NCBI RefSeq assembly: GCF_015840335.1
Contig: NZ_CP060395.1
Span: 3,013,277 to 3,077,276 of the forward strand
Source of the DNA: Synechococcus sp. CBW1108
GTDB lineage: Bacteria; Cyanobacteriota; Cyanobacteriia; PCC-6307; Cyanobiaceae
DNA length: 64,000 bases
Direction of reading: 5' to 3'
Program-made: the position numbers and the translations under genes
The notes under the pieces: model-generated
Databases searched by the model: none
What the model was told of the DNA's origin: nothing
Seen by the model: only the letters and a program-made list of their open reading frames with translations
Part shown: positions 39,949 through 50,365 of the stretch, in pieces
Layout of the letters: every line of letters starts with the position of its first letter
How positions within the stretch are numbered: the first letter of the stretch is position 1

Positions 39949-40701
39949 TCATGGATTCGGATAGAGACGTTGCTTGAGCTGCTGGGCAAGCTGGGGGTTG
40001 TTCCTGGCCCATTGCTCCAGGCCCCTTTGCTTGAGGTAGGCCTGCCATTGATCTTCGCGGGTCGATCCGACAAGCACGAGTTCGGGCCCCTCAGGTTTCA
40101 GCGACTCCGGCAGAGGGATGCCTGCCTTGGTTTGCTGTGGCGCGGAGCTCGGGCCAAGAGTTTCGGGCAAGGGTGCCGTCGAGCCGGCCTGGGAGCCAAC
40201 CGCCACGGCGGTTCGCAGCTCCTCGATGGAGCGGCTCTGCCCCATCGCCAGCCCGGTGAACATGGGCAACTCCATCTTCAATCGGTTGGCAGGCTTCGGA
40301 TTCACGAAGCGAAAGCTGAGGGTTGTCTTCTTACCGCTCTGGTCGTAGCCCACCACGTTGAAAAAGAGATCGGCCGTGCGACCTGCTTTGGAGCTGGCGA
40401 TGCCGCCGCCGATCAACCCACCGATCAACCCGATGGGGCCCAGCAGCAATCCTCCGCCGATGGCTCCCAGGGTGGCCGCCCCAAGTGCGCCGGCGGTGCC
40501 TTTGCCAACGTTGAAGCTCTCATCGCCGCCGGTGAACCATTGCGCGATTCGGGGTGTGGGGATGAAGCCAGCTGGGGAGGAAATGCCACTGGCATCGAGG
40601 CTTATCGTGCAGGAAACATTCCCACAGAGTGCGTCATAGGATGAGGCTGATGCTGGACTGGTGATTAGAAGGGAAAGGAGCAATAGGGGCGAAACACGCA
40701 T
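39949..40701 (-). CDS. Secreted or membrane protein with glycine-zipper segment
   Basis: Start chosen at ATG 40701 (MRVSPLLLLSLLITS), a good signal peptide ending ASA; the frame is open further upstream. About 250 aa. Residues around 70-110 form a Gly/Ala-rich hydrophobic stretch (GAATLGAIGGGLLLGPIGLI) like a glycine-zipper membrane segment. A beta-rich domain follows (ADLFFNVVGYDQSGKKTTLS), then a Pro-rich linker and a charged helix at the C-terminus. Family not recognised. Confidence 0.6.
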   Translation of the reverse strand: MRVSPLLLLSLLITSPASASSYDALCGNVSCTISLDASGISSPAGFIPTPRIAQWFTGGDESFNVGKGTAGALGAATLGAIGGGLLLGPIGLIGGLIGGGIASSKAGRTADLFFNVVGYDQSGKKTTLSFRFVNPKPANRLKMELPMFTGLAMGQSRSIEELRTAVAVGSQAGSTAPLPETLGPSSAPQQTKAGIPLPESLKPEGPELVLVGSTREDQWQAYLKQRGLEQWARNNPQLAQQLKQRLYPNP

Positions 40702-40815
40702 GGCGCCGGGAAGCAGAAGTCCCCTGCTCCTCGTTCTGGAACCACTCGGCTGATTCCAGGCGGTTCTCAAGGATCTCCCAAACCCTGTGGCATACAAATC
40801 GCCAAGGATCAGGAC

Positions 40816-41741: not shown

Positions 41742-44700
41742 TCAAAGCCCCTGAATTGGCCTCCAGTCGCCCACCAGCTGCCAGGCGGCCCAGTAGTAGG
41801 GGGGGCTCCAGTCTTCTCCGCCGGGGCCGCGGACGGCGCCACTGCGAAACTCAGATTGCACGGCCGCCAGGGCATCAGCACGGCCTTCCCCTGCTTTGAG
41901 CCGTTTGTAGAAGCGGCTCATGAATTCGGCAGTGGCGGCGTCGTCCACCTTCCAGAGCGACAGCAGGGTGCTGCGAGCACCAGCCACGGTGAGGGAACGC
42001 TGCAGCCCGTAGACCCCTTCTCCGGTGCGCACATCGCCCTGGCCGGTGGAGCAGGCGGAGAGCACCACCAGCTGGGTGCCTTTGAGGTTGAGATTCACGG
42101 CTTCTGCAGCAGTCAGATAGCCGTCGTCGTTGGGATCGGCATCCGGCTGGTTGGCACCCGCAAACACGAGACCGCTGCGCAGCTGGGGATCCTCACCGCG
42201 TAAAGGCCACAACAGGGTGGATTGATCCTGCAAGGCCAGCAATGGTCTGGCGGGTTCCTTCTCGCTATCGGCCACAAAGAAGCCATGGCTGGCGATATGG
42301 AGCAGCGCGGGCCCCTTCTGCCGCTGCAGGCTTGTGGTGGTGGCAGCTGCTCCGCTGATCAATCCGCTGCCCAGCAGGCTGGCCACTTGCTGGCCCTCCC
42401 GTTGGGTGGCAGGAAGGGGGTTCCACCGGCTGCTGCCTAGTTCAGCCGAACGCCGCTGGGCCCCATTGGTGTCCGTATCAGGCCTTGTTGCTGGAGTTGG
42501 TTTGGCGTTGGCGCGGTCGTAGCTGGGGTTGGCCATCACCAGCGCCGCAGTGCTCGGCGGCGCTGGTTGCTGTAGACGCACCAATTCCCGGCCCGTCGTG
42601 AGCAGCCGCAACTGCACGACCTTGGCCAAGGGGGTGCTGGGCTGCTGCGGAGCTGGCAGCGCCGCAAATGGCACCCGGTTCAGTTCACCGTCTGGAGAGA
42701 GAAACCACTGCCGGCTGCCGCTGAGCTGGGGCAGCAGCGGCTTGAGCACCTGGTTGCTTAGCTGCGCCCAGACCGCTTCCGCGTCGGTGAGATCCTCTGC
42801 TGAAGCACTGAGCCCCTTGTGAACCGTGGCTTCAATGGCCGCCGCTGGCCCCAGAGGCATTGAGCTGATGCTGCCGCTGGGCTTAAGCACCAAGGCGATG
42901 TACTGGGCTTCACCCCAGCGTTGATTTTTCGGCTTGCGGCCGTCCCAAGACCGGTAGCGCTGAAACTCCACCAGCACACCATCGGCAGGCAATGCCTTGG
43001 CCACCTCAAGCGGAGTGACAAGCTGGATCTGGAGCTCTGGGATCTGGCGGTACAGCTCGCTCTGCAGGCGATCCCGTTGGTCGCGTGCCGCAGCGCGGTG
43101 TTCAGGGGGTAATGAAACAGAGGCCAGTTGCTGCGTCAGTGCCTGCAGCTGCTCCACTTTGGCTTGATCGACGCCGGGTGAATTGAGAAGCAAGCCCTGA
43201 CGCTGCTCGATCTCCAGAAGCAGCCCCTGGCGGTTGAGGCGGGTATTTAGCGCAAGCTCGGCAGCGGGTGGATGGCTTTCAATCCATCCAAAAGGAATTT
43301 GCCAGTTTTGAGAGAGCTGATCAAGAAATTTCGAACGTAGCTCTGATGGTAATGGTGGCGCTTCACGCGTGAGCCACGTGAACTCCATAGCTAGAGACTT
43401 GGTTATCAGCATCAGAGCTTCTGAATATTGCCCTGCTATGGCGTGCTCGCGCGACATATTGGCGTAAAGCGAGCCCATTCTTAAATAATCATTATTCGAG
43501 CTCTTGCTTTCTATCGCTAGAGACCTGCGGTAGAGCAAGTTAGCAGCCGCATGCCGACCTTGGTCGCTCAAAAGAACGCCCAAGTTATTAAGGCTATTAG
43601 CGGTTTCTGGATGATTAGGTCCTCGATTTTTTTCATTAATAATAAGGGAGCGCTTCAGGAGAGATTCTGCCTCAGGGTATCGCCCAAGCTCCTGCATCAA
43701 TAATCCCAAATTATTGATAGTTGCGGCGAGGCCAGCGTTCTCGGGGCCTAAGTTTTTTTCATTTATTAAAAGAGATTGACGCAGCATCTTTTCGGCCTCA
43801 GCATATTTCCCTAGGTAATTACTAACAACTGCCAGGTTGCTAAGAGCATTTGCAAACTGCTGGCTTTCCGCACCTATCTCTTTGCGGAATATTTCAAGAG
43901 ATTGAAGAAGTAGCTCTTCCGCCAATAGATGCCGCCCCCTGCCAATCTTGACTAACGTTAGATCATTAAGCGTAGTTGCGGTATCAGGATGACTTGGGCC
44001 AAGAAGCTTTTCCCTGGTCGAGAGGGAGCGACTGTAATAATAATCTGCCTCGTCTAGCCTTCCCTGTCTCTTAAGCAGACCAGCTAAATAATTGAGGCTT
44101 GTGGCGTACTTTTGACTGTCTTGCCCGAGTGCTAGATCTTCTATGGCCAAGGCCCTTCGAAAGACTTGCTCTGCATCGTTATATCTTCCCTGATTATTTA
44201 GGTTGTATGCCAAAAGTGTTAAGGTTGTTGCCACGCCTAGGTCATTGCTGCCCAGCAGGCTCTCGTCAATAAAAAGAGCTTCGCGGCGAGCATTTTCTGC
44301 GGCCGTATATTTTAACTGATCTTCCAAATTAAAAGACAAAATCAACAGCGCCTTAGAGACCTCGGGGTGTATAGATCCTAAAAGTTTTTTTTGAAGCTTT
44401 AGATGGCGCCGATAGTAGGTTTCGGCGTCTGTTGTTCTCCCGGACTTGTCAAGCAGACTGGCAATCATGTAAAGGGCCTCCGATGCCGTTGGTGACTCGA
44501 TGCCAAAGTTTTTCTCTATTATCGGCATCAGCTGCCGCCAGATATTAACTGCGGCTCCATATTTGCCTTCTGTTCTTAGTTTTTCAGCCTGTTCAAATAT
44601 CGCTTTGATGTCTGGTTGATTGCTGTTAAGATTAGAGGTAGCCTCAGAAGCCAGCACTGGTCCTGCAAAGCCAACTTGCGTTGACCCCAAGCCTGCGGCC

Positions 44701-44756
44701 ATCAAGAACATGATGACCAGCCACCTGCTCATAGGGCTCAACGGATTGACTCTCAT
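41742..44756 (-). CDS. Secreted TPR-CHAT caspase-like protease
   Basis: Start taken at ATG 44756 (MRVNPLSPMSRWLVIMFLMA); the frame opens at 44807. About 1004 aa. A signal peptide ends near VLAS. Residues about 50-460 hold roughly nine 42-residue kinesin-light-chain-type TPRs (for example LNNLGVLLSDQGRHAAANLL). A linker follows, then a C-terminal CHAT domain (about 700-1000) with the catalytic dyad in LLHIASHGFFVAD (His) and LVVLSACSTGQGD (Cys). CHAT proteases cleave partner proteins after TPR-sensed activation. The TPR half has clearly lower GC than the CHAT half, with the change near 43.3 kb, which suggests a domain join. It diverges from the sigma-like operon at 44890. Confidence 0.85.
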   Translation of the reverse strand: MRVNPLSPMSRWLVIMFLMAAGLGSTQVGFAGPVLASEATSNLNSNQPDIKAIFEQAEKLRTEGKYGAAVNIWRQLMPIIEKNFGIESPTASEALYMIASLLDKSGRTTDAETYYRRHLKLQKKLLGSIHPEVSKALLILSFNLEDQLKYTAAENARREALFIDESLLGSNDLGVATTLTLLAYNLNNQGRYNDAEQVFRRALAIEDLALGQDSQKYATSLNYLAGLLKRQGRLDEADYYYSRSLSTREKLLGPSHPDTATTLNDLTLVKIGRGRHLLAEELLLQSLEIFRKEIGAESQQFANALSNLAVVSNYLGKYAEAEKMLRQSLLINEKNLGPENAGLAATINNLGLLMQELGRYPEAESLLKRSLIINEKNRGPNHPETANSLNNLGVLLSDQGRHAAANLLYRRSLAIESKSSNNDYLRMGSLYANMSREHAIAGQYSEALMLITKSLAMEFTWLTREAPPLPSELRSKFLDQLSQNWQIPFGWIESHPPAAELALNTRLNRQGLLLEIEQRQGLLLNSPGVDQAKVEQLQALTQQLASVSLPPEHRAAARDQRDRLQSELYRQIPELQIQLVTPLEVAKALPADGVLVEFQRYRSWDGRKPKNQRWGEAQYIALVLKPSGSISSMPLGPAAAIEATVHKGLSASAEDLTDAEAVWAQLSNQVLKPLLPQLSGSRQWFLSPDGELNRVPFAALPAPQQPSTPLAKVVQLRLLTTGRELVRLQQPAPPSTAALVMANPSYDRANAKPTPATRPDTDTNGAQRRSAELGSSRWNPLPATQREGQQVASLLGSGLISGAAATTTSLQRQKGPALLHIASHGFFVADSEKEPARPLLALQDQSTLLWPLRGEDPQLRSGLVFAGANQPDADPNDDGYLTAAEAVNLNLKGTQLVVLSACSTGQGDVRTGEGVYGLQRSLTVAGARSTLLSLWKVDDAATAEFMSRFYKRLKAGEGRADALAAVQSEFRSGAVRGPGGEDWSPPYYWAAWQLVGDWRPIQGL

Positions 44757-44889
44757 CGTCCGAACCCCAGGCTGGTGTGCATGCTCCACTCCTTTCTCGG
44801 TTCTCAACTTGTTCTAGCCGAGGTGGCTTGATTCATGCCTGAGCAGTACAGACTGGCCGCACCGCGCACCCCAGCTGGCCGGCACTGCC

Positions 44890-46182
44890 ATGGGCGAGTA
44901 CCAGGAACTCATACAGCTGACCCCGGAGGGCATCCGCTCCCGTGAGCAGCCCCTGGTGATGTCCACCCTGGCGGCGCTGGGATGTGAGACGGCTGAACCC
45001 TGCCGCAGCCTGGATCTGGACCTACTTGAGGCCAGCCAGGTCAAAGCCGATCCACTGCCGCTTCTCTGCCTCCGTTGCCGTATCAGCCATGCCTTGCATG
45101 GCTGGTTGCTGGCCACCTACAAGGTCCACAAGGCTTTGCATGGCATCGAGGTGGAGGTGATGGCCAGCTATGCCCTCGACGACGACGGCGAGCTGACCAT
45201 CCGTACCGGCCCGTCAGAGACGGCGCCGTTTACCTATGCCCAGATCGCCTCAATGCCGGCGGGGCTGATCAGCCCGTTTTCGGCCGAGGTGCTGCGCAGC
45301 TACGACTCTGCTCTATGCGGGCTGCCCCACTGGTCACGGCTCAAGATCCAGGCCCACAACGAGCTCAAGGCGTACTTCAGGCAGCACGGCCTACTGCTGA
45401 TTTCCGATTGGGCCCTGCTGAGCAACAGCAGCCCCACCCGGGTGCGGCAGGCCTGCGCGCAGCACGTCAGAAGCCGCGCAACGATTGAAGCCCTGTGCGC
45501 CCTGCACGGCCGCTACGGCCTGCCCTATGAAGCAGCCAAGCTCAGCTACAAGCAGGCAACGGGCAAGGCATCGGGCTGGCAGCCAGATCTGGCCTTTCTG
45601 CGGGCGCTTGCACCGGATCAAGATCCCTTCACCACCAGCGATCAGCTCAAGGCGATCGCCCTGGCCATTCGGCAGCTGTTGACGATCAGGGCCAGCAAAA
45701 GCCTCGATGAAGCCGCCGCTGCGGGTTTTGAAGCGATCGATCCCAGTTATCTGGCTGCTTCTGAACAGGAGCAAGGGCCCTCAGGGGGCGAGCTCAAAGC
45801 CCTGATCGATGCCGCCCTGCAGCGAGCCATGGATCAGCACATGCCCCAGGTGCTTGCCACCGCGGGCAAGAACGCAAAACTGCTGCGCTGCCTGTGGGCT
45901 GGCTGGGCAGAGGGCCTGACCAACCGCCCCCTTGCCGATCGCTGCAATACAAGTTGCGGAACTGTGAGCAAGAAGCTCCGCCCGTCGGAGCACGCATCAG
46001 CCATCGCCACCGCAGCCGCCATGGAGCTCAAGCGTCACCCGGCCTTTGCCAGCTGCGGCCAGAGCGTGGAGGCCGCCGAGCGGCTGGCGGGTGCCTTGCG
46101 GAATCACCTGCTTGAGCCAGAACGAGAAGGAGACATCGCTCCTCTGCGCCGTTGGGTGCAACACCACCTGAGCCAGTCATGA
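44890..46182 (+). CDS. Divergent sigma-70-like protein of the CHAT/DUF1822 cluster
   Basis: 430 aa. Residues 55-90 (PLPLLCLRCRISHALHGWLL) and the following YALDDDGEL resemble the large sigma-like proteins encoded upstream of DUF1822 and CHASE2 genes in many cyanobacteria. LKAYFRQHGLLLISDWALLS then SPTRVRQA matches their middle region. The C-terminus (WAGWAEGLTNRPLADRCNTS then CGTVSKKL) looks like the helix-turn-helix that would bind a -35 element. The match is by remembered family pattern and is divergent. It overlaps DUF1822 by ATGA, so all four genes are coupled. It may direct transcription of this module. Confidence 0.6.
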   Translation: MGEYQELIQLTPEGIRSREQPLVMSTLAALGCETAEPCRSLDLDLLEASQVKADPLPLLCLRCRISHALHGWLLATYKVHKALHGIEVEVMASYALDDDGELTIRTGPSETAPFTYAQIASMPAGLISPFSAEVLRSYDSALCGLPHWSRLKIQAHNELKAYFRQHGLLLISDWALLSNSSPTRVRQACAQHVRSRATIEALCALHGRYGLPYEAAKLSYKQATGKASGWQPDLAFLRALAPDQDPFTTSDQLKAIALAIRQLLTIRASKSLDEAAAAGFEAIDPSYLAASEQEQGPSGGELKALIDAALQRAMDQHMPQVLATAGKNAKLLRCLWAGWAEGLTNRPLADRCNTSCGTVSKKLRPSEHASAIATAAAMELKRHPAFASCGQSVEAAERLAGALRNHLLEPEREGDIAPLRRWVQHHLSQS

Positions 46183-47177
46183 CCGAACCGACCCCTCCGA
46201 TGGACGTGCTGCCGATGCCCGCAGGGGCGATCGAGCTGCCCGTGGATGAGCCCTGGCCCAGCGAGCGGGCCCTGGCGGTGGAGGCGCTCCGGCAGGTGCT
46301 GGCAAGCCAGGCCAAGGCATTGCCGTTGGGGCCGGAAACCGCTGCAGAAGACGACGGCCGGCTGCTGAGTCTGAACCGCTTTGCGCTGCAGCTGGCCACC
46401 AGCGGCATCGCGGCTGATCAGATTGCAGTGGATGCCAAGCCCTGGGGGGAGGAGGGCACAGCACCACAGCTGTTGCTGGCGGCCCAGGTTGATGAGGAAA
46501 ACGCCGTGGTGGCCTTTGCTGGGGTGCTCACCGGCTGCGAGTTTGTGGCGTTGGCCCGCCAGGCCGAGCGCAGCGGTGATCAGCTGTGGCTCGATGCTGA
46601 TGCCTTCAAGGGAGGGGTGGAGCGACTGCTGACGCTGGTGCAGCTGCTCGAACCAGCGGCCCTACCCCGGGTGGCCTTGCCGAGTCTGCAGCGTCAGGTG
46701 GTGGCCGTGGCCGACTGGCTCGGCGGGCAGCTCGATGGAGCCCTGCAGCAGGTGTTCGGCGCCCAGTGGCAACCCCTCACCCAGGGTGCTTTTTTCAGTG
46801 GTGGTGCCGCAGCGGCCGAAACAGATGCCCTGGCGCTGGTTGCGATTCCGTTGGGGCTCGATGGCGGCCAGCTGGTGTGCGGGCAGGCGGCCGAAGGTTG
46901 CGTGGAGCGTTTTGTGCTGCAGATGGTGGCCACCGGTGCTGATCCAGCCCGCCCCGATGGCTTGGTGCTGCGGCTCACCGCCGCGATGGCTGGCGACCTG
47001 CTGCCCGATGGCCTGGTGATCACGGCGCACCAAGGCAGCCACGAGCAACGCCAGTGCGCCGACAGCAGCACCCAGATCGAGCTGGTGTTCGGCGGGGGAG
47101 CGGAGCTGATCACGGTGCGCCTGAGCTACCCCGGCAGCAGCGATCTGGCGCTGCCCCCCCTGCAGCTTCCGGGCTGA
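46179..47177 (+). CDS. DUF1822-family protein
   Basis: Start at ATG 46179 (MTEPTPPMDVLPMP), overlapping the previous stop by ATGA; an in-frame upstream ATG at 46152 lies inside the previous gene. 332 aa. The N-terminal part has the DUF1822 pattern: RLLSLNRFALQLATSGIA, LLLAAQVDEENAVVAFAGVL and DQLWLDADAFKGGVERLLTL. The remainder is beta-rich. The family is almost confined to cyanobacteria and sits next to CHAT-CHASE2 genes. Its biochemical role is unknown; an adaptor between the sigma-like and CHAT proteins is possible. Confidence 0.72.
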   Translation: MTEPTPPMDVLPMPAGAIELPVDEPWPSERALAVEALRQVLASQAKALPLGPETAAEDDGRLLSLNRFALQLATSGIAADQIAVDAKPWGEEGTAPQLLLAAQVDEENAVVAFAGVLTGCEFVALARQAERSGDQLWLDADAFKGGVERLLTLVQLLEPAALPRVALPSLQRQVVAVADWLGGQLDGALQQVFGAQWQPLTQGAFFSGGAAAAETDALALVAIPLGLDGGQLVCGQAAEGCVERFVLQMVATGADPARPDGLVLRLTAAMAGDLLPDGLVITAHQGSHEQRQCADSSTQIELVFGGGAELITVRLSYPGSSDLALPPLQLPG

Positions 47178-49339
47178 TGGGCGCCCGCATCGATCTGCTG
47201 ATTCGCCAGGCGGTGGATGGCAGCGGCCAATTGCAGGTGTTTCTGGCGGCTCCCGGCCGGCAGGATGCTTTTGTCGTGCCCATCCCCAGGGAGTTGCTCA
47301 CCCTGCAGCGGGTGTGGCGGCAGCGCTTCTTGAAGCACCATGACCCGGCCTTTGCCTGGCCGGAAGGCGCGGCGGTGGTTCGCAGCTACAGCGAACAGTT
47401 GCGCCAGGGTCTGCAGCAGTGGATCGACAGCTCCGCCTGGCTGCCCTTGCAACGGCTGTTGAAGGATCTGCCGGATCTGCCGTTGTCCCTGCGGCTGGAG
47501 GGCGTCGATGAGACGTTCGGCAGCCTGCCCTGGGAGAGCTTGGCGCTGGGGCGACCTATTTGGCGGCTCGATGGCGACGCTCCTGTCGCGGGCAGTTCGG
47601 CTCCGGTACGGGCCCGCAAGCCGCGCATCCTGTTGTTGGTGGGGTCAGAGGCCGGACTCCACCTCGATGGCGAAGTGGGGCGGCTGCAGGCGCAGCAACG
47701 CAGCGGCCGGATTCATCTCAGCGTGCTGCGGGGTCAGGGCTTTAACCCAGCAGCCCTGCGGACGGCATTGGCCCAGGGTGCCGGCTGGGATGCGCTGCTC
47801 TACCTGGGCCACAGCAGCGGCGGGCCCAATGGAGGGGTATTGCACCTGGGTGATGGCAGCCAGCTCGATGGCCAAGCCCTGGAAGCTGATCTGGCGGTAG
47901 CGGCCAGCCATGGGCTGCGCGTGTTGCTGTTCAACAGCTGCAGCGGTCTGCAGCTCGCTCAGCACGCGGCCCGGGCAGGCATCGACTGGGCGGTGTGTTT
48001 CCTGGAGCCCGTGCCATCAGCAGCAGCAGCGTTGGCCTTTGCCCAGCTCCTGAAGCGGCTGGAGGCGGGCAGCGATCTGCAGGCCGCCGTGATTCACACC
48101 CGGCAGATGCTGGCTGAACGCAAGGGTTGTGAGGGCTGCGAGCTGCTGCTGGCGGCAGTCGCCACGCCCATCGCCAAGCCCTTCCAGCTGCCCCTGCAGC
48201 GGCGACGGCAGCTGCTGCTGCGATTGGCCAGCACCAAGCGGAAGCAGGCGATTGCCGCAGGAGCATTTGTGGCGGCAGCCCTGGTGATGGAGTTCACCCC
48301 CGCCAACCCGCTCAATAGCTACCTGCTGGATCGGCGGCTGGAGGTGCAGCGGCTCTGGCGCCAGCTCACCCGGCAGCCTGGGCCAGGGGCCGCCAGCCCC
48401 ATCACGGTGCTGCTGCTGGATCCCGCCACCACTCTCCCGGAACTGGGAGGTGGAGCTGTGGTGGATCACACCTCAAGGGTTGCTCTGGCTGAGGTGCTCC
48501 ATAAAACCCCGCCAGCGCAAGTGCCTGTGGTGGGTCTGGATGTGGTGTTCGATCAGCCCCGCCCCGGCACTGATCTGCTGGCTGCTGTTTTGCGCCGTCA
48601 ACCTGGCCGCAAGGTGGTGGGAGGTTTTGTGCCCCAGCTGGGTGCGCCCTGCCAGGGCCAGAGCGGCAACTTCTGGTTGGAGAGCTCACCGCTGGCGGCG
48701 GCAGGGTTGATCGGAAAGAGCCTGGCGGTCGGTACGGCTGGCTCTTGCGGGGTGCTCAAATCGCTGCCCCTGCATCTGCTGTATGCGATCACCAGCGACA
48801 ACTTCGCCGGTGCCTTGAGCAAGCAGAGCGTCCCTGTGTTGCCGGCTGATCGGGTGATCGACTGGTCGCTCAACTGGGCCGAGCAGATCCGCCTGGTGCA
48901 ACCGGCCGAGCTGCCACAGCTCAAGGCACCTGTGCTGTTGGTGGGCACCAGCGGCCGGCTCGGCAACCAGTCAGAAGACCTCTTTGAAGCGCCCGCCACA
49001 GTGCAGGACGCTCTGTTGCGCGGCGACCAACCGCTATGGAACGGAAATGCCCGCGAAGTGCCAGGGGTGCTGGTGCAAGCGGTGCTGATCCAATCGCTCA
49101 ACTTGCAGCACTGGCTGACCCCGCTCTCGCAGACCCTGTGCACCGCAGCTGCCGCTGCCCTGGGGGTGGTGTTGGCAGCGCTGCTGGAGAAGCGTCAGCA
49201 TCGCTGGACTGCGGTCGCTCTGCTCGTGCTGGTGTGCTCCCCGCTGGCCTGGAGCCTGGCGATCTGGCAGCTCTGGTTGGTGCCGTTGCTGCTGCCCCTG
49301 CTGGCCCTCAGTGCCACCGCCTCCTGCCGTGATGACTGA
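47177..49339 (+). CDS. CHAT-CHASE2 membrane protein
   Basis: Start at ATG 47177 (MGARIDLLIRQAVDG), in a TGATG overlap with DUF1822. 720 aa. The N-terminal CHAT protease domain (about 130-340) has the dyad in LLYLGHSSGGPNGG (His) and VLLFNSCSGLQLA (Cys). One hydrophobic segment (AAGAFVAAALVMEF, about 355-370) leads into a CHASE2 sensory domain (about 400-630: VLLLDPATTLPELGGGAVVD, VVGLDVVFDQPRP). It ends with two or three membrane helices (about 650-710). The layout suggests an extracytoplasmic sensor that activates a cytoplasmic caspase-like protease. The substrate may be a neighbour. Confidence 0.85.
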   Translation: MGARIDLLIRQAVDGSGQLQVFLAAPGRQDAFVVPIPRELLTLQRVWRQRFLKHHDPAFAWPEGAAVVRSYSEQLRQGLQQWIDSSAWLPLQRLLKDLPDLPLSLRLEGVDETFGSLPWESLALGRPIWRLDGDAPVAGSSAPVRARKPRILLLVGSEAGLHLDGEVGRLQAQQRSGRIHLSVLRGQGFNPAALRTALAQGAGWDALLYLGHSSGGPNGGVLHLGDGSQLDGQALEADLAVAASHGLRVLLFNSCSGLQLAQHAARAGIDWAVCFLEPVPSAAAALAFAQLLKRLEAGSDLQAAVIHTRQMLAERKGCEGCELLLAAVATPIAKPFQLPLQRRRQLLLRLASTKRKQAIAAGAFVAAALVMEFTPANPLNSYLLDRRLEVQRLWRQLTRQPGPGAASPITVLLLDPATTLPELGGGAVVDHTSRVALAEVLHKTPPAQVPVVGLDVVFDQPRPGTDLLAAVLRRQPGRKVVGGFVPQLGAPCQGQSGNFWLESSPLAAAGLIGKSLAVGTAGSCGVLKSLPLHLLYAITSDNFAGALSKQSVPVLPADRVIDWSLNWAEQIRLVQPAELPQLKAPVLLVGTSGRLGNQSEDLFEAPATVQDALLRGDQPLWNGNAREVPGVLVQAVLIQSLNLQHWLTPLSQTLCTAAAAALGVVLAALLEKRQHRWTAVALLVLVCSPLAWSLAIWQLWLVPLLLPLLALSATASCRDD

Positions 49340-50021
49340 ACGTCGCCCTCTCACCATGAACCGCTCGATCGTTCTCTCCATCGCCGCCACCGTTGCCATG
49401 GCCCTGGCATCGCCCTGGCAGGGTTCCGTGCAGGCGCAGGCCAACCCGCCTGCCAGCAAGCGCCAGCCTCCGTCGCTGAGCTTGATCCAGAAGTTGCGTG
49501 CCTTTCTCGGCCTCAACCCGCCGGTGGCCGTCGGCGGCAGCCGCAGTTGTGATGGGGCGCCGATCTGTCTGGTGAGCCCCTGGCCCGGTGCAACGGTCGG
49601 GCTGAGCAGGCCGGTGCTTCAGGCCGTTGGCCCGCTCAATGAACTGCGGATCGAGCGCGCTGGTGTGATCGTCTGGCGGCAACGGGCCAGCTCTACCCAG
49701 CCGATCGAAGGGCCTGTGGCCTGGCCCATCGAACCGCTGAACCCTGGAGAGGCATTCACCATCAGGGTCCGCCCCCGGGGTGCCGCGGGTGGCGATTTTG
49801 CGGCATTCCCGTTCAAGGTCGCCAGTGCCGAGGTGCTGGCCGCCAACCAGCGGCAGATCGCCGCCCTTGGTTCGGATCCGGCCGCCTGGGACCGGGCTCT
49901 GGCTCAGCTTTCACCCCGCCAAGGTGCTTTGGCTGCCGCCCTGCTCAGCAGCCCGGATGCACCAGCGGATCTGCGTGGGGGCCTTGGCTGCGGTGATCAA
50001 ACAACTTCTCCTCCTCCTTGA
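49332..50021 (+). CDS. Secreted DUF928-like protein
   Basis: Start at ATG 49332 (MTERRPLTMNRSIVL), overlapping the CHAT-CHASE2 stop; ATG 49356 is an alternative that gives a tighter signal peptide ending VQAQA. About 229 aa. Two cysteines (SRSCDGAPICLVSPWPG) sit at the start of the mature domain, then beta strands and a helical end (LAANQRQIAALGSDPAAW). Position and layout match the DUF928-type proteins at the end of cyanobacterial DUF1822/CHASE2 operons. Sequence similarity is weak. Periplasmic location is inferred. Its 3' end overlaps the convergent RHH gene by 25 bp. Confidence 0.55.
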   Translation: MTERRPLTMNRSIVLSIAATVAMALASPWQGSVQAQANPPASKRQPPSLSLIQKLRAFLGLNPPVAVGGSRSCDGAPICLVSPWPGATVGLSRPVLQAVGPLNELRIERAGVIVWRQRASSTQPIEGPVAWPIEPLNPGEAFTIRVRPRGAAGGDFAAFPFKVASAEVLAANQRQIAALGSDPAAWDRALAQLSPRQGALAAALLSSPDAPADLRGGLGCGDQTTSPPP

Positions 50022-50365
50022 TCCGTAGGTAATGGCATCGAGGCTTCAGGGGCATCATCCATGCCCGTTAGCAGGATTTCGCTGAGGATGTAATCAACCA
50101 CCGCTGCGCGGCTGTCGAACCCCATCTCCTCTCGGGCACCCTCGATTGCCGAGAGCAAAGGAATGCTCAGCTCAATACTCAGCCTTCTTTTTTTATCGTC
50201 TGTAATGCCCCTTAGCAGGATTTCGCTGAGGATGAGATCAACCACCGCTGCGCTGCTGTCGAACCCCCACTTCTCTCGGGCAGCCTCGATTGCCGAGAGC
50301 AAAGGAATGCTCAGCTCAAAACTCACCCTTCTTGTTTGATCGTCTGTTGAATTCATTGTCGTCAT
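49997..50365 (-). CDS. Tandem ribbon-helix-helix-like protein (internal duplication)
   Basis: 122 aa made of two near-identical 48-residue units: RRVSFELSIPLLSAIEAARE... and RRLSIELSIPLLSAIEGARE..., each ending in a SEILLxG helix. The DNA shows the same as a 144-bp direct repeat (about 50068-50211 and 50212-50355). A short basic strand followed by two helices suits a ribbon-helix-helix fold, which normally works as a dimer. Here one chain could supply both halves. No toxin gene lies directly beside it, so an antitoxin role is not supported. The gene overlaps the end of the DUF928-like gene tail to tail. Confidence 0.6.
   Translation of the reverse strand: MTTMNSTDDQTRRVSFELSIPLLSAIEAAREKWGFDSSAAVVDLILSEILLRGITDDKKRRLSIELSIPLLSAIEGAREEMGFDSRAAVVDYILSEILLTGMDDAPEASMPLPTDQGGGEVV

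Follow-up and report, generated by a model that had tools for sequence, protein, structure and literature searches.

A five-gene locus of Synechococcus sp. CBW1108 joins two CHAT proteases to a sigma-like protein and DUF1822, a candidate anti-sigma factor

We analyzed a 64,000-nucleotide stretch of the Synechococcus sp. CBW1108 genome (NZ_CP060395.1, positions 3,013,277 to 3,077,276), here called the window, which has a GC content of 62% and belongs to a 3.2-Mb genome assembled as a single contig. Five genes at 41742-50021 are the subject of this study: a plus-strand operon encoding, in order, a sigma-like, a DUF1822-like, a CHAT-CHASE2, and a DUF928-like protein, and a divergent minus-strand gene whose product is a secreted TPR-CHAT protein. 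Read on the DNA, successive operon genes share 4, 1, and 8 bp. The sigma-like and DUF1822-like genes meet at ATGA (46179-46182), the DUF1822-like and CHAT-CHASE2 genes at TGATG (47175-47179), and the ATG of the DUF928-like gene (49332) lies inside the CHAT-CHASE2 gene, 8 bases before its end at 49339. All five genes, both shared motifs, and the nested end were verified as described in the original prediction, which had been made from the sequence alone.

The TPR-CHAT gene (41742-44756, minus strand) probably starts at the ATG at 44756, which gives a signal peptide, rather than at the TTG at 44807. Its product matches Pfam CHAT (2.7e-69) and TPR, carries a hydrophobic N-terminal segment in the hydropathy profile, and has putative catalytic residues in the motifs LLHIASHGFF (His) and VVLSACSTG (Cys). 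The CHAT-CHASE2 protein (47177-49339, plus strand, 720 amino acids, starting at the ATG at 47177) matches CHASE2 (PF05226, 6.1e-8) above the cut-off and CHAT weakly (2e-5), barely above it, and a sequence search of the PDB returned no match. By hydropathy, it consists of an N-terminal domain, the CHAT domain, a membrane helix at about 358-376, the CHASE2 domain, and C-terminal membrane helices. The region ahead of CHAT, where an alpha+beta EACC2 domain would lie, is conserved and shows an LPWE-like motif in 14 of 14 aligned homologues. His212 and Cys255 are invariant across the same number of aligned homologues, and the catalytic pair is present in 94 of about 97 homologues in the full set, a total that is approximate, TPR-CHAT rows in that alignment having been removed by eye. 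Loss of these residues in homologues, which the original prediction had named as an observation that would speak against it, was thus not what we found.

None of the other three proteins matched Pfam significantly in its own right, and their names are taken solely from the matches of their relatives. The sigma-like protein (44890-46182, plus strand, 430 amino acids) has no membrane segment and, taken alone, shows just a weak helix-turn-helix at its C terminus. However, the profile of its group aligned with extracytoplasmic function (ECF) sigma relatives over 324 columns (hhalign, 99.5%, E = 2.3e-22). These relatives lie beside canonical DUF1822 genes and match TIGR02937, i.e., sigma70-ECF, at 2.3e-32 and 7.6e-31, as well as Sigma70_r4 at up to 1e-10. 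By this profile evidence, the first operon gene is predicted to encode a derived ECF sigma.

The DUF1822-like protein (46179-47177, plus strand, 332 amino acids) is predicted to be cytosolic. It aligned with annotated DUF1822 (hhalign, 97%, E = 1e-11), and PF08852 is matched by 47 of the 56 members of the alignment that contains it, although the window protein itself falls below the cut-off of that family. Its AlphaFold model, folded like our other models from alignments of the window and genome loci only, consists mainly of beta strands (predicted local distance difference test score, 87.7). DUF1822 was present in 127 of 194 cyanobacterial genomes sampled. The DUF928-like protein (49332-50021, plus strand, 229 amino acids) has a signal peptide ending near VQAQA. 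Its link to DUF928 (hhalign, 78%, E = 1.9e-5) is weaker than the DUF1822 link, and 19 of 41 relatives in the same position match PF06051. A second DUF928-like domain is encoded elsewhere in the same genome, outside the operon (G000:C1:89059-89538), and stand-alone copies are present in many relatives.

The five-gene arrangement, which is conserved in small-celled cyanobacteria, is more than chance. In a survey of 150 genomes of the order, a full-length CHAT-CHASE2 gene was found in six, i.e., the window's genome and five relatives, and all six share one arrangement of the five genes, with the TPR-CHAT gene divergent. The proteins of the set are about 30 to 68% identical among these genomes (CHAT-CHASE2, 39 to 48%). 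A scan of 84,980 species genomes yielded at least 560 CHAT-CHASE2 relatives, of which we analyzed the best 80. Among these, the sigma and DUF1822 genes lay upstream in 51 of 70 loci with enough upstream sequence, a DUF928 gene directly downstream in 60 of 78, all four operon genes in 43 of 69, and a CHAT-TPR gene nearby in 24 of the 43 loci with long flanks. The families therefore occur together in other genomes, as the original prediction had proposed. The profiles were iterated on the same loci, so marginal single calls may be generous; the calls are nevertheless supported by the constant positions of the hits. The same order was found on plasmids of Leptolyngbya, Acaryochloris, Tolypothrix, Anabaena, and others, where the genes are annotated as hypothetical, DUF1822, CHASE2, and then hypothetical or DUF928. 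Hitchhiking of unrelated neighbors was considered and rejected because the order holds where identity is about 40% and is common to plasmids and chromosomes.

At the core of this module are the paired sigma and DUF1822 genes. The sigma profile matches 17 of the 150 genomes and the DUF1822 profile 16 of those 17, the sigma-only genome having a fragment on a short contig (Fisher p ~1e-20, kinship ignored). The two genes adjoin in all 30 family loci fetched, and in a wider class of 19 DUF1822 loci, a sigma-family or short ECF-like gene lies just upstream in nearly all. In 14 of the 16 genomes, a TPR-CHAT-type gene was found no more than about 7 kb away from sigma; the other two, both of a type in which DUF1822 and DUF928 are fused, had no CHAT match at all.

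This fusion characterizes ten small genomes (1.5 to 2.0 Mb; locus GC, 25 to 42%) among the 16, in none of which a search for CHAT-CHASE2 found the gene. There, the gene following sigma encodes one protein comprising the N-terminal half of DUF1822, a membrane helix, and a DUF928 domain. With profiles built from unfused relatives only, residues 1-178 matched the DUF1822 half (E = 1e-35 to 1e-59) and residues ~225-400 matched DUF928 in nine of ten proteins (E = 1e-28 to 1e-46), with a single hydrophobic helix near 186-207 that exceeded the hydropathy threshold in eight of ten. A search of 400 family genomes with the fused profile returned 14 full-length fused and about 20 unfused proteins; in all, 14 to 16 small genomes of the family have the fusion. 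In the fetched loci, which comprised 14 unfused and 16 fused ones (two of the latter diverged), CHAT-CHASE2 follows DUF1822 in 14 of 14 unfused loci and 0 of 16 fused loci. On the tree, the fused sigmas cluster together with modest support (80/85), and the pattern probably reflects a single fusion and a single loss that were then maintained, rather than 16 independent events.

ECF sigma/anti-sigma pairs usually have the sigma gene first and, after it, a gene for a protein that crosses the membrane once and has one domain in the cytosol and another outside. By hydropathy, most of the fused relatives conform to this layout, with a putative cytosolic domain encoded beside the sigma gene, one membrane helix, and a putative outside domain, and their predicted layout is that of a transmembrane anti-sigma factor. 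In the window, the DUF1822 and DUF928 halves are separate, with the protease gene between them. As far as we have checked, three findings are new: the fusion, the pairing of sigma with DUF1822 in nearly every case, and the lack of CHAT-CHASE2 where the fusion occurs.

Some fused loci carry further genes upstream of sigma. A stand-alone DnaB-helicase C-terminal domain is encoded directly upstream in three (L151:2107-3012, L154:8506-9399, and L157:8547-9452), matching PF03796 at 2e-91 in L151 and 7e-84 in L154, with L157 similar by sequence only. Two others have a metallopeptidase gene upstream of sigma (L155:1599-2495 and L153:9900-10637); the peptidase of genome G099, which has no CHAT gene, is of the M48 type (PF01435, 1.6e-6), and that of G008 is of the neutral zinc peptidase type (PF04228, 1.3e-12). 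These may be replacement or extra proteases.

The operon is a member of a kind already described in outline. Kaur et al. (2021, eLife, PMC8195603) reported EACC2-caspase proteins, some with CHASE2, encoded beside ECF sigma and DUF1822 genes, and predicted them to be conflict systems with sensing and autopeptidase roles; the original prediction overlooked this work in calling the module known mainly by annotation. Shared with these systems are an N-terminal domain, a caspase-like domain, and CHASE2 in one protein, and the adjacent ECF sigma and DUF1822 genes. However, DUF928 is not mentioned in the main text of that paper, and its passages on the system name neither a flanking TPR-CHAT gene nor the DUF1822-DUF928 fusion. 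The same paper names DUF1822 a TPR protein, a label that does not fit the window member because its model is mainly beta strands.

Three other systems invite comparison. In Craspase, the type III-E CRISPR system, Csx30 inhibits an ECF-like sigma and is cut by Csx29, a TPR-CHAT protease (PMC10028731). There, too, a CHAT protease is encoded with an ECF-like sigma (CASP-sigma) and a third protein; however, the window has no CRISPR effector, its protease is membrane-anchored via CHASE2, and PDB searches detected no similarity between DUF1822 and Csx30. The membrane anti-sigma factors of the RseA or FecR type, which work with site-specific proteases, share the domain layout of the fused relatives, but the window halves are separate and the DUF1822 and DUF928 relatives match no known anti-sigma family in Pfam. 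Cyanobacterial orthocaspases with CHASE2 (reviewed in PMC7475262) likewise place a caspase-like catalytic domain inside and CHASE2 outside, whereas the window CHAT domain is not of the p20 type and has conserved sigma and DUF partners.

We consider it slightly more probable than not that the five genes form one trans-envelope signaling unit controlling the derived ECF sigma, with DUF1822 as its inhibitor. In known families, CHASE2 serves as an external sensor domain. Because of this, and because the DUF928-like protein has a signal peptide and the DUF1822-like and sigma-like proteins have none, the probable location of DUF928 is outside and that of DUF1822 inside. The secreted DUF928 protein would receive a signal in the periplasm, and CHAT-CHASE2, predicted to be a transmembrane protein with an external CHASE2 and an internal CHAT protease, would couple this signal to cytosolic DUF1822. 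DUF1822 would be the dedicated partner of sigma and most likely its inhibitor, i.e., an anti-sigma factor. Upon activation, CHAT would probably cleave or reshape DUF1822 and free sigma, a step modeled on the Csx29-Csx30 case. The secreted TPR-CHAT protein, the second conserved protease, may act outside or may be the product of a sigma target gene. More tentatively, and with somewhat less than even confidence, DUF1822 may be a new anti-sigma family with DUF928 as its outside sensor, coupled by the membrane-anchored CHAT protease in many cyanobacteria and fused, with no further need for CHAT-CHASE2, into a classical membrane anti-sigma factor in small-genome relatives. Under this view, a caspase-like protease would gate a sigma without CRISPR across the cyanobacteria.

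Several results weigh against a signaling unit of this kind. The two fused-type genomes lacking any CHAT match indicate that the sigma-DUF1822 pair can do without CHAT, and the fused loci are one clade, so their counts are not independent. Pfam did not recognize sigma region 2 in the window sigma-like protein, and a Foldseek search of its model against the PDB gave nothing significant (best E = 2.3). The DUF1822 model gave weak Fn3/Ig-like Foldseek matches only (best E = 2.7e-3) and resembles neither Csx30 nor any known anti-sigma factor in that search. Finally, as a sign of sigma self-regulation, we looked for a promoter motif common to the regions preceding the sigma genes, with block shuffles as controls; in the picocyanobacterial set, none was clearly above the shuffles and GGAAC was not enriched, and in a wider set, some dyads did beat them (12 of 48 versus 4 to 5), an excess that relatedness can explain. 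The sensor-protease-transcription circuit of the original prediction is still the best reading, to which the fusion adds evidence, but the word "complete" was too strong because sigma and the fusion persist without CHAT-CHASE2 and two sigma-bearing genomes have no CHAT gene.

The module could instead be a conflict or cell-death system in which a stimulus sensed by CHASE2 leads the caspase-like CHAT to self-activate and cut cellular proteins, with sigma and DUF1822 as accessory regulators of the response. We judge this unlikely, even though the same gene set was published as EACC2-caspase systems (PMC8195603) and CHAT-TPR genes are often near, in the proportion given above. Small genomes retain sigma and the fusion although they lack CHAT-CHASE2, a pattern more in keeping with a regulatory than with a death-effector core, and PADLOC returned a generic TPR match (1.3e-7) and a weak BovA match (E = 0.026) and nothing further. 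No viral relatives of CHAT-CHASE2 were found in a search of viral sequences. One IMG/VR contig carrying the sigma gene (L211, IMGVR_UViG_3300007216_000158) bears the complete five-gene module and also encodes a YEALCG secreted protein similar to the product of window 39949-40797. Since it holds the whole module together with a similar secreted flanking gene, this contig looks like a misassigned chromosome, probably of the Cyanobium type. As no other viral contig was found to carry the sigma gene, a viral origin was rejected, and the killing or phage-response role suggested in the original prediction found no backing in these searches.

Two further alternatives concern the sigma-DUF1822 pair itself. 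DUF1822 might be a positive cofactor, a chaperone, or a membrane tether of sigma, with CHAT having another substrate; adjacency and fusion show a partnership and not its sign, and the reduced window sigma may need help in binding polymerase. The fused layout is, however, the usual ECF sigma/anti-sigma arrangement, and we regard a positive role as rather improbable. We give still less credence to the sigma-like protein being no longer a sigma, i.e., a DNA-binding or scaffold descendant in a unit that signals without changing promoter choice. Sigma70_r2 is indeed missing from the families listed for its group, which hold a weak helix-turn-helix and region 4 only, and Foldseek gave no match, as described above; yet its group profile matches relatives with both sigma regions, and the C-terminal helix-turn-helix is kept.

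If inhibition of sigma by DUF1822 is correct, the consequences extend beyond this locus. DUF1822 is widespread in the cyanobacteria sampled and is mentioned in only two papers of the library searched; as an anti-sigma factor it would make many uncharacterized sigma circuits testable at once, with the fused pair of the very small genomes offering a simple two-gene version. The module would add to Craspase a second system, independent of CRISPR, in which a CHAT protease controls a sigma, and this would suggest an existing regulatory logic that Craspase took over. Where there had been a set of uncharacterized domains, the fusion, the pairing, and the absence of CHAT-CHASE2 yield an anti-sigma hypothesis that is specific and testable.

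Next to the operon, a minus-strand gene at 49997-50365 encodes a 122-amino-acid protein with no Pfam match, made up in part of two near-identical repeats of about 50 amino acids (RRVSFELSIPLLSAIEAAREK...), and it shares 25 bases, on the opposite strand, with the end of the DUF928-like gene.

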